Assembly: GCF_900143515.1 (NCBI RefSeq)
Contig: NZ_FSQT01000002.1
Coordinates: forward strand, 3,721,501-3,785,500
Origin: Micromonospora cremea
Lineage (GTDB): Bacteria > Actinomycetota > Actinomycetes > Mycobacteriales > Micromonosporaceae
Reading direction: 5' to 3'
Length of the DNA stretch: 64,000 nt
Position 1 is the stretch's first letter. Each line of letters opens with the position of its first letter. A program made the translations under genes and the position numbers. Positions 47,990-51,934 of this stretch are shown here, in pieces. The notes under the pieces are model-generated. The model saw only the letters and a program-made list of their open reading frames with translations, ran no database searches and had not been told where the DNA came from.

Positions 47990-50900
47990 ATGGCGGGCCG
48001 TACCTCTCAGGCGAGCCGGCGACGCGGCGCGTCGCCGCGCGGTGGCACCAACAGCCGTGCCCGTCAACCGGCGAAGAAGACCCGGGCACCGGTTCGGCGC
48101 CGCACCGCGGCCGCCCGACCGGGGCCGGCCGTCTACGTGGGCCGCGCGATCGGTGCACTGTGGATGGGCCTGGCGCACGGGATGGGCTGGGCGGTGCGAG
48201 CCGCCGGCCGGCAGGCCGCCTCCGCCCGCGACCTCGACCCCGAGCACCGCCGCGACGGTGGCGGGCTGCTGCTGTTCGGCCTCGCCCTGCTCAGCGCCGT
48301 CGCGCTCTGGTTCTCCGGTGCGGGCCCGGTCGGCGCGCGGCTGGCCGACACCGTGCGGCTGTTCCTGGGCGCGATCTCCGTGGTCGTGCCGGTGCTGCTG
48401 ATGATCGGAGCCTGGCGGTTGATGCGCCAGCCGGCCGATCCGGCACACCGGGGCCGGGGGCTGATCGGCTGGGGTTCACTGCTCGTGTCGACCGCCGCGC
48501 TGCTCCAGATCGGGCAGGACCCGGTCGACCCGGTGCAGCGTGACTTCGCCGGCGGTCTGGTCGGCGCCGGCGTCGGCGGCCTGCTGGAGCGCGCGGTCAC
48601 CGCGTGGGTCGCGGTGCCGCTGCTGATCCTGCTGCTGCTCTTCGGCCTGCTCGTGGTTACCGCGACGCCGATCAACAAGATTCCCGAGCGGTTGGGTCTG
48701 CTCGCCGGTGGGCTGGTCGCCCCGCCGGACGCCACCGAGGAGGAGGCGGACGAGACGGCCCTGCGGCCGGCGCGTAAGCGACCGGCGAAGCGGATGCCGC
48801 CGCTGGTGGACCCGGACGACTTCGACGACCTGGACGGCGCCGACCTCCAGGAGACGATGGTGCTGCCGCGCAAGGCGCCGGCGAAGGTGCCGGCCAGCCG
48901 CAAGCCGGCCGAGCCACCGGAGCACTCGCCCGCGCCGACCCGGGCCGAGCAGCTCGCGTTGACCGGCCTGGCCGGCGACTACACCCTGCCGCCGGCCAAC
49001 ATGCTCAGCGCCGGCGCCGCCGCGAAGACCCGCAGCAAGGCCAACGACGAGGTCATCGCCGCGCTGACCGGGGTGTTCGACCAGTTCGACGTGGACGCCG
49101 CGGTCACCGGCTTCACCCGGGGCCCGACGGTCACCCGGTACGAAGTGGAGCTGGGGCACGGCGTCAAGGTCGAACGGATCACCCAGCTCTCCCGCAACAT
49201 CGCGTACGCGGTCAAGTCGCCGGACGTGCGGATCCTCAGCCCGATCCCGGGCAAGAGCGCGGTCGGTGTGGAGATCCCCAACACCGACCCGGAGAACGTG
49301 GCGCTCGGCGACGTGCTGCGCTCGCGGGCGGCGACCAGCGACCACCACCCGATGGTGGTGGCGCTCGGCAAGGACATCGAGGGCGGCTACGTGGTGGCCA
49401 ACCTCGCCAAGATGCCACACATCCTCATCGCGGGCGCGACGGGTGCTGGGAAGGCGCTGGCCCTCGATACACCGATCCCGACGCCTGACGGCTGGTCCAC
49501 CATGGGTGCCCTCCGGGTAGGCGGGAAGGTGTTCGACGAGCAGGGCCGGCCGTGCACCATCGTCGCCGCCACCCCGGTCATGTATGACCGCCCCTGTTAC
49601 GAGGTGGAGTTTTCCGATGGCACGGTCATCGTTGCCGACGCCCAGCATCAGTGGCAGACGACGACGAGGGCTGGCCGGACCCAGCGAACCCACCGTTGGA
49701 AGGATGGTTCCTACTGGTCCGTCAATGATGTGCAGCGGGTGACTGCACGGGCCGACACTGTGCTGTCGGATCTCGATCGGCCGGTGTCGACTGACGAGGT
49801 CATCGCAGATGTCGGCCAGCAGTTCCGGAACGTGCTGTACCGGATCGTGCGTGGGTTGCCCAAGGAACCAGGAAACGCGCTGACCAGCTACCTGCGGGGT
49901 AGTCGCGAGGTGACCCGCCGGGTCCCTACCTATTCCCGTCACCGGGTCTACCAGGCATTGCGCGAGCTTGTCGCAGATCCGGGACGATCAGGTCGGAGGC
50001 GCAGCTTTGACGATCGACCAGTCACGACGGCAGAGATAGCAGCCTCGCTACGGGTGGTCGGGCGTAGCGGATCCTGGACCAATCACGCGGTGGCAGTGTG
50101 CGGAGCGCTTGACTATCCAGAGCAGGATCTACCGATCGCGCCGTACACCTTGGGCTGCTGGCTGGGTGATGGCACCACCGGGTCGGCGGGTTTTACGTGC
50201 GACGAACAGGAGTTGCTGGACAACATTCGTCTGGACGGGTACGTCGTGACGAAGCATCCCGCCAGCCGGATGCAGTACACGATCTCGAACAGGCCGGAGC
50301 GGGACGGGCGAATCGCCGAGGCTGTGGAGCTATTCACCCGGGGCGTGAGCCTCGCTCGGGCGGCCAGGCAGCTCGGGGTCGGCCTTTCCGCGGTGTGTCT
50401 GGCAGCCCGCGGTCAGGAAAGGCTTCAGCCGCCGAGCCACATCGAGCCGGGAGCTCCTTCCCGTGACCGATACCGGACGCTGCGGCAGTTGTTCCGCGAG
50501 CTTGGTACGAAACACATCCCTGCCATCTATTTGCGATCTTCTGAGCAGCAGCGGCGAGCCCTGCTGGCGGGTCTGTTGGACACCGATGGCACGGTTTCCG
50601 CGCGAGGCGGAGTCGAGCTCGCACTCACCAATGAGCGTCTGGCGCAGGATGCTCTCGAGTTGATCATCGGGCTCGGTTACCAGGCCACAATGACGACCAA
50701 GCGGGTAAAAGGTCGGAGTGAGTTGACCTCCACCTGCTATCGGATCCACTTCACCCCGGCTGACAAGGTCTTTCGGCTGACGCGCAAAGCAAGCCGCCAG
50801 GTGATCAGTACGCGCGCGACGACCTCGCAGCGCTACATCGTGGACGTGCGGCCGATCCCCTCGGTACCCGTCCGATGCATCGAGGTCGACAGCCCGAGCC

Positions 50901-51934
50901 ACCTGTACCTGGCCAGTCGTGCGTGCATCCCCACGCACAACTCCAGTTGCCTGAACACACTGCTGGTGTCCGTACTCACCAGGGCCACCCCGGACGAGGT
51001 GCGGCTGCTGCTGATCGACCCGAAGCGGGTCGAGATGACCGGCTACGAGGGCATCCCGCACCTGGTCACGCCCATCGTGACCAATGCCAAGAAGGCTGCC
51101 GACTCGCTGGACTGGGTCGTCCGTGAGATGGACATGCGCTACGACGACCTCGCCGCCAACGGGGTCCGGCACATCGACGACTTCAACCGCAAGGTGCGCA
51201 ACGGCGAGATCAAGGCCCCGCCGGGCAGCGAGCGGGAGATGCGCCCGTACCCGTACCTGCTGGTGATCGTGGACGAGCTGGCCGACCTGATGATGGTGGC
51301 GCCGCGCGACGTGGAGGACTCCGTCGTCCGGATCACGCAGCTGGCCCGGGCGGCCGGCATCCACCTCGTGCTGGCCACCCAGCGGCCCTCGGTCGACGTG
51401 GTGACCGGTCTGATCAAGGCCAACGTGCCGTCCCGGCTGGCGTTCGCCACGTCCTCCCTGGCCGACTCGCGGGTCATCCTCGACCAGCCGGGCGCGGAGA
51501 AGCTGCTCGGCCGTGGTGACGGGCTCTTCCTGCCGATGGGCGCCTCGAAGCCGGTGCGGATCCAGGGCGCCTGGGTCACCGAGCGCGAGATCGCCGACGT
51601 GGTGAAGTTCTGCAAGGACCAGCGCGAGCCGGAGTTCCGCAAGGACGTGCTGGCCCCCGCGCAGGACACCAAGAAGAAGATCGACGAGGACATCGGCGAC
51701 GACCTCGACCTGCTGACACAGGCGGTCGAGTTGGTGGTCACCTCGCAGTTCGGCTCGACCTCGATGCTCCAGCGCAAGCTGCGCGTCGGCTTCGCCAAGG
51801 CGGGCCGGCTGATGGACCTGATGGAGACCCGTGGCGTGGTCGGCCCCTCGGAGGGTTCCAAGGCGCGCGACGTGCTGGTCAAGCCGGACGAGATGGAGGA
51901 GGTCCTCGCCGGCCTGCGCGGCGACGGGGAATGA
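47990..51934 (+). CDS. ftsK: DNA translocase FtsK/SpoIIIE interrupted by an intein
   Basis: The 1314-residue precursor comprises an 818-residue FtsK plus a 496-residue intein (residues 489-984). Extein part: basic N-terminus, four membrane segments ([68 protein letters not shown]), a charged linker, then the FtsK alpha/beta motor. The Walker A is GATGAGK|SSCLN, split by the intein after Lys488. Walker B is [12 protein letters not shown]; downstream [20 protein letters not shown] and the C-terminal winged-helix gamma domain ([20 protein letters not shown]). FtsK pumps chromosomal DNA at division or sporulation. Without splicing the ATPase site would be broken. Confidence 0.96.
49454..50941 (+). 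other. Class 3 intein with LAGLIDADG homing endonuclease in FtsK
   Basis: A 496-residue in-frame insertion between Walker A Lys and Ser. It starts [14 protein letters not shown], with Ala in place of the usual Cys/Ser. Block B has H65 and W67 in ADAQHQWQT; block F has C475 in [15 protein letters not shown]; block G is T494-H495-N496 followed by extein Ser+1. W67/C475/T494 form the WCT triad that defines class 3 inteins, which splice through the block F Cys. Two endonuclease motifs are intact: [11 protein letters not shown] (near 50152) and [12 protein letters not shown] (near 50560), with their Asp residues. Between them lies an HTH-like stretch ([20 protein letters not shown]). The DNA is more A+T-rich than the flanks (50221-50280: 36 of 60 are G/C), which suggests recent transfer. 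Confidence 0.92.

Follow-up and report, generated by a model that had tools for sequence, protein, structure and literature searches.

A predicted endonuclease-bearing class 3 intein at the Walker A motif of FtsK in Micromonospora cremea

What is a 496-residue insert doing inside the P-loop of the chromosome-segregation motor FtsK? The question is raised by a 64,000-nucleotide stretch of the Micromonospora cremea genome (contig NZ_FSQT01000002.1, positions 3,721,501 to 3,785,500; hereafter the window, whose numbering is used throughout), in which ftsK occupies positions 47990..51934 of the + strand, the strand of every feature described below. The open reading frame (ORF) has 1314 codons and a stop, translates into 1314 amino acids without internal stops, and carries FtsK_4TM (PF13491), FtsK_alpha (PF17854), the FtsK_SpoIIIE motor (PF01580) and FtsK_gamma (PF09397), each above the Pfam cut-off. 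As read from the junctions, an N-extein of 488 residues (47990..49453) ends in the Walker A sequence GATGAGK (codons 49433-49453), and a C-extein of 330 residues (50942..51931) begins with the Ser+1 of the same motif and continues as SSCLNTLL. Between Lys and Ser, in frame, lie FtsK residues 489-984 (49454..50941), running from Ala1 to Asn496 of the insert. An earlier note on this DNA had put a 496-residue insert at exactly this point and expected an 818-residue spliced FtsK; its coordinates are correct to the base, and 1314 - 496 does give 818.

By its sequence, the insert belongs to the class 3 inteins and encloses a LAGLIDADG endonuclease resembling PI-SceI. The N-terminal splicing region (residues 1-75, blocks A and B; 49454..49678) aligns with the solved inteins 6rix and 6bs8 from residue 1 and contains His65 at block B:10 (49646..49648) and Trp67 at B:12 (49652..49654), the latter being the first member of the Trp-Cys-Thr (WCT) triad. 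The C-terminal region (residues 461-496, blocks F and G; 50834..50941), delimited by alignment and model, contains Cys475 at F:4 (50876..50878), the predicted splicing nucleophile, and Thr494-His495-Asn496 at G:5-G:7 (50933..50941). The claim in the earlier note that the Ala start together with W67, C475 and T494 makes a class 3 signature is thus borne out, with further features of the class also present (His at B:10, Asp62 of the DxxH motif, the Thr-His-Asn end and Ser+1), and the alignment of blocks A, B, F and G that it proposed agrees with class 3 inteins, residue 1 being Ala and no class 1 nucleophile. The similarity to solved class 3 inteins covers both ends of the insert, starting at residue 1 and reaching the C-terminal His/Asn (expectation value, E = 1.8e-35). 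Against class 3 DnaB inteins of known structure the splicing domain shows 54-57% identity, and the predicted model has the Hedgehog/intein (HINT) fold, with a root-mean-square deviation of 1.2 A from a solved class 3 intein. The Pfam Intein_splicing model did not match the insert at E <= 1, which may be the reason that annotation names such genes after the endonuclease alone.

Searched against proteins, the intein region has 7,135 matches of FtsK-like length (E <= 0.001), and residue counts were taken from the best 120 of these, each of which carries the FtsK_SpoIIIE domain. Within these 120, H65, W67, C475, T494, H495 and Ser+1 are each kept in 120/120 and N496 in 119/120, and the DxxH motif together with all WCT residues is kept in every one. 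The N-junction reads GATG[AS]GK/A (the slash marks the insertion point) in 106/106 relatives whose record reaches residue 1, the other 14 records starting later. Named sources among the listed relatives are Micromonospora, Plantactinospora, Glycomyces and a Streptosporangiaceae assembly, the closest match listed being a Micromonospora protein at 98%. FtsK runs continuously through GATGAGK-SS in 33 other genomes of the genus (36 rows, three of them second copies). We reject a chance origin, since both ends match solved inteins, the splicing residues are conserved across the 120 relatives and 33 genomes have an uninterrupted FtsK at the same point.

The middle of the insert has the parts expected of a homing enzyme. 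The LAGLIDADG region (residues 225-460; 50126..50833) matches PF14528 above its cut-off (E 2.5e-7, residues 366-425) and has two LAGLIDADG-type helices with one acidic residue in each: Asp239 in LGCWLGDG (50168-50170), kept in 117/120 listed relatives, and Asp376 in LAGLLDTDG (50579-50581), kept in 120/120, both of catalytic type. An alpha/beta insert before block C (residues 76-225; 49679..50128) is, from the model (m3b0bfc0355b6) and a match to PI-SceI, a probable DNA-recognition arm; it is mostly well predicted, with loops at a predicted local distance difference test score of 61-72. A weak helix-turn-helix-like stretch (residues 287-315; 50312..50398) matches PF13384 below cut-off (E 0.12) and is helical in the model. 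PI-SceI, the yeast VMA intein, matches the whole model in structure, yet its identity is 16-18% and its host is VMA. PI-SceI is a class 1 intein.

We therefore read the insert as a full-length class 3 intein, homing endonuclease included, at the FtsK Walker A Lys-Ser bond, predicted to splice and to home, and give this reading a probability of about 0.93. Splicing would follow the class 3 mechanism as in the Mycobacterium smegmatis intein DnaBi1 (PMC5222942, PMC6195587). The precursor would be made as one chain, in which Cys475, by attack on the Lys-Ala1 bond, acquires the N-extein; this acyl group would then move to Ser+1, Asn496 would cyclise and release the intein, and an O-N shift would leave an uninterrupted 818-residue FtsK with GATGAGKSS restored. 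Since the ligating Ser is also the P-loop Ser, unspliced FtsK would lack a complete Walker A motif, and a precursor with a split P-loop should not hydrolyse ATP. The endonuclease, for its part, is expected to cleave ftsK alleles that lack the intein, at their P-loop codons; repair would copy the intein with short flanks, spreading it between species. FtsK_gamma has a single match across the whole genome, so that there is no second FtsK_gamma protein and splicing should gate FtsK. The view of the earlier note that this would gate an essential motor stands in so far as this is the sole FtsK_gamma protein, but is overstated as to essentiality, as FtsK is described as dispensable for septation in Streptomyces (PMC3781837).

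How widely is the intein distributed? A related intein (E <= 1e-10) occurs in 84/160 genomes of the genus and an FtsK-borne one in at least 13/160. A match to the FtsK C-extein is present in 160/160, and the P-loop status of ftsK was read as occupied in 13 and empty in 33 of the 160 genomes. The 17 other loci read (L017-L033) all sit in a DnaB-type P-loop, GRPGLGK/S. Across the family, the FtsK form occurs in at least 21/354 genomes by a search at E <= 1e-60 that shorter inteins could escape; among 394 genomes sampled from the class, a search at E <= 1e-130 gave one match beyond the window, again in a DnaB-type P-loop (G760/L129); and in the phylum sample 33/396 genomes have a relative, the window's being the only chromosomal FtsK among the 30 loci fetched. 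No second copy or other relative of the intein was found in its own genome at E <= 10. One of the three loci from the contig scan (L004) was incomplete and was left out. Among phage records, 507/50,697 match the FtsK intein at E <= 1e-5 (tblastn). The earlier description of class 3 inteins as rare is too strong in view of these 507 records and the 7,135 proteins, though neither set need be class 3 throughout, the class 3 residues being present in all of the best 120 proteins.

In viral sequences, the window intein alone as query gave no match, whereas a scan with an alignment (A2) returned at least 600 stretches and at least 561 relatives, of which 80 were kept, 67 resolved and 63 were distinct. 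Insertion lies between GK and S or T in 60/67 resolved viral inteins, a count biased by one search pattern that contained GKAL. Flanks like those of chromosomal FtsK were found in none of the 67, and none of the phage or IMG/VR loci read has a chromosomal-type FtsK host, as judged by annotation or flanking residues only.

The history of the element can be read by comparing host and intein trees, the ftsK tree being built without L111-L113, which come from the same genomes as L077-L079. The window's three nearest ftsK relatives (G118, G021 and G104) have an empty site. The nearest intein among these genomes, that of G141 (96%), belongs to the same broad host clade as the window and adjoins the empty G124, while the next-nearest, that of G094 (89%), belongs to a different host clade, among a second intein lineage. 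The ftsK tree needs nine changes between occupied and empty, at least five of them forced by starred branches. A short flank (50942..50956), starting TCCAGTTG, lies just downstream of the site in 5/5 alleles on the window's branch of the intein tree (L001, L005, L006, L064 and L065; Shimodaira-Hasegawa-like approximate likelihood-ratio test, SH-aLRT, 93) and in 0/33 empty genomes. In the second Micromonospora lineage (L007-L016), Leu or Ile replaces Cys at C-extein position 3 in 10/10 alleles (0/33 in empty genomes), and the Ile that lies nine residues ahead of the junction is Val in 9/10 (1/33). This is the trace expected from co-conversion during homing. The ratio of nonsynonymous to synonymous substitution rates (dN/dS) is 0.06-0.17 for the intein in seven pairs and 0.07-0.24 for the exteins of the same pairs; between the window and its nearest copy it is 0.145 for the intein and 0.071 for the extein. 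Third-position GC is 0.76 in the intein and 0.95 in the window's extein. Discordant host and intein trees, co-inherited flanks and low dN/dS together argue that the FtsK intein is a homing element under purifying selection.

Where might such an element have come from? We built a tree of 111 class 3-like inteins, namely 87 loci and 24 proteins picked from the 120, with hosts assigned by the residues flanking the junctions and with Pfam run on eleven host ORFs. The tree omits L002 (which contains L006), alternative starts in L047 and L128, and P0015, which stops short of the N-junction; 12/86 loci were dropped from alignment A1. Pfam identified DnaB, dCTP deaminase (two), terminase (two), RecG and the FtsK/SpoIIIE family (two, one below cut-off) among the eleven ORFs, and found no host family for L039, L051 and L125. 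The 44 FtsK inteins (20 loci and 24 proteins) form a single clade (SH-aLRT 99), which groups with 39/41 DnaB inteins (SH-aLRT 98). Terminase, RecG, plasmid-protein and other inteins lie outside this FtsK and DnaB clade, two dCTP deaminase inteins being nearest to it. On the simplest reading, a single event links the DnaB and FtsK P-loops; the jump may have run from DnaB to FtsK, in reverse, or from a third source.

Comparison with known inteins fits into this picture. M. smegmatis DnaBi1 (6bs8/6own) and M. chimaera DnaB1 (6rix/6riy) have His65, Trp67 and Cys48 at the same index as the FtsK intein, and the mycobacterial DnaB mini-inteins share with it the GK/S site in Walker A and the splicing-domain identity given above. 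They differ in that they sit in a DnaB-type P-loop rather than in GATGAGK, and the solved chains are of 139-146 residues, whereas the FtsK intein keeps its LAGLIDADG endonuclease and is 496 residues long. The Micromonosporaceae DnaB inteins (L017-L033 and L071-L075) are class 3 too, occupy a GRPGLGK/ST site and are 44-48% identical to the FtsK intein, but have DnaB as host and form a separate neighbouring clade. One of them (L017, in DnaB of G040) has a further Intein_splicing match downstream, at residues 922-1055 and below cut-off, which may be a second intein. The class 3 inteins of phages, that of the terminase (TerL1-a) among them, share the class and the 'classic' Lys/Thr Walker A site (PMC5050341), but have other hosts and about 28-59% identity.

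Several points weigh against our reading of the insert and its history. In the protein P0095 (1/120) the terminal Asn496 is replaced by Lys, which should block its C-terminal cleavage, so that inactive copies may exist. Asp239 is replaced by Gly or His in P0027, P0043 and P0068 (3/120), which may be a sign of endonuclease decay in some copies. Selection for splicing-friendly neighbours could contribute to the flank pattern. In the intein tree, which was built by a quick method and has several long branches, two of the 41 DnaB inteins (L053 and L056) fall outside the FtsK and DnaB clade, and with the root unplaced a single jump from DnaB is the simplest reading and no proof of direction.

Does the intein do anything for its host? 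The alternative that survives best, and which we consider rather probable, is a purely selfish homing element with fast, unconditional splicing and no regulation of FtsK. The patchy distribution in the genus, the horizontal spread and the mostly intact endonuclease residues speak for it, as does the presence of Cys48, the residue on which regulation might turn, in DnaB (41/41) and viral inteins (47/63) as well, which suggests no FtsK-specific adaptation. It is compatible with a class 3 intein that splices and homes. A DnaB relative with the same cysteine pair, however, is reversibly stopped by H2O2 (PMC6195587).

That relative is DnaBi1, in which, according to the same paper, H2O2 drives a disulfide between Cys48 and the catalytic Cys118, as shown by mass spectrometry. 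By analogy, the FtsK intein has the parts of a switch of this type, and oxidation-sensitive maturation of FtsK is predicted: the equivalent Cys48 (codon 49595..49597) and Cys475 are each kept in 120/120 listed FtsK relatives, and a disulfide between them would pause splicing in oxidative stress and delay chromosome translocation. We regard such redox gating as possible but unlikely. Cys48 was called non-conserved in the DnaBi1 study, yet it appears conserved well beyond mycobacteria in our similarity-recruited sample, being kept also in 2/2 dCTP deaminase inteins and in 17/22 of a mixed group, and in 0/2 RecG inteins; this bears on the role of the residue. All seven replacements of Cys48 abolish DnaBi1 splicing (PMC6195587), however, and structural need alone would equally explain the conservation. 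A still more doubtful elaboration is that ectopic P-loop homing brought a ready-made DnaB switch into FtsK, so that oxidative stress stalls splicing and delays pumping at closing (sporulation) septa. If true, new FtsK motors would stay dead until the cell is reducing again, and their maturation would be a post-translational switch in mycelial actinomycetes.

Very improbable, by comparison, is a dead, non-splicing remnant in a broken gene, with FtsK activity absent or supplied elsewhere. The reported dispensability of FtsK for Streptomyces septation means that a broken ftsK might be tolerated, but the genome has no second FtsK_gamma protein, the frame is open with all catalytic residues intact, dN/dS to the nearest copy is low in both intein (0.145) and extein (0.071), and the C-extein is up to 99% identical to that of intein-free relatives. 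Least likely of all, and rejected on residues, is membership of class 1 or class 2 with a coincidental WCT pattern: Ala1 also occurs in class 2, but that class is described with Cys+1 (PMC7765530) and the FtsK intein has Ser+1, class 1 needs a residue-1 nucleophile for which Ala1 cannot serve, the WCT and DxxH residues are invariant in the listed relatives, and the closest relatives of known structure are class 3 inteins whose splicing has been tested (PMC5222942, PMC6195587).

The element is thus of a known kind, that of class 3 P-loop inteins, in a host that appears to be new within the literature searched. No published report of an FtsK intein was found in the available parts of that literature, although a listing in supplementary tables is possible, and the word FtsK is absent from the texts of PMC7664689, PMC5050341, PMC6195587, PMC7765530 and PMC12245125. 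A chromosome-segregation motor is thereby added to the hosts of class 3 inteins. A natural series is formed by ftsK without the intein, ftsK occupied by two intein lineages within a single genus, and an adjacent DnaB clade at the equivalent P-loop position. It gives access to the questions of how inteins pass from one P-loop ATPase to a non-orthologous one and of whether an intein gates a motor or merely rides in one.

Other hosts in the sample show related arrangements. A Rhodococcus plasmid (NZ_AP025187.1, L123) has a class 3-like intein in the P-loop of an FtsK/SpoIIIE-family protein, and since it falls outside the chromosomal FtsK clade, inteins seem to have entered this superfamily on at least two occasions. 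L047 (G439) and L128 (Euzebya pacifica plasmid NZ_CP031166.1) apparently have two inteins in one P-loop, ending PSMN/S, in a plasmid host with a weak FtsK/SpoIIIE match; in the second intein, G:5 is Ser instead of Thr and the penultimate His is replaced by Met. L044 and L046 are class 3 inteins in dCTP deaminase (Pfam DCD), which is not a P-loop ATPase, at ARIEGK/SS, a GK/S look-alike of the Walker A site. A WCT-bearing intein with Val at the Cys48 position occupies a RecG-type P-loop, GEVGSGK/T, in L060 and L062, and Pfam RecG domains were found on L060.

Two further candidate forms of the FtsK locus were rejected. Hidden inserts were sought in long FtsK ORFs (1189-1513 residues in ten genomes with no FtsK intein found, L101-L110), and 10/10 are uninterrupted at the P-loop, the extra length lying upstream. 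Split ftsK genes were suggested by 14/120 records of 783-825 residues (P0003, P0005-P0012, P0015, P0025, P0031, P0053 and P0110). None has a residue aligned to Ala1, and the six starts examined fall at intein residue 2, 17 or 43. The short records are probably artefacts of gene-start annotation, with wrong starts that leave out the first half of FtsK; one genome is listed with both a 1314-residue and a 784-residue version of FtsK (P0004 and P0006).

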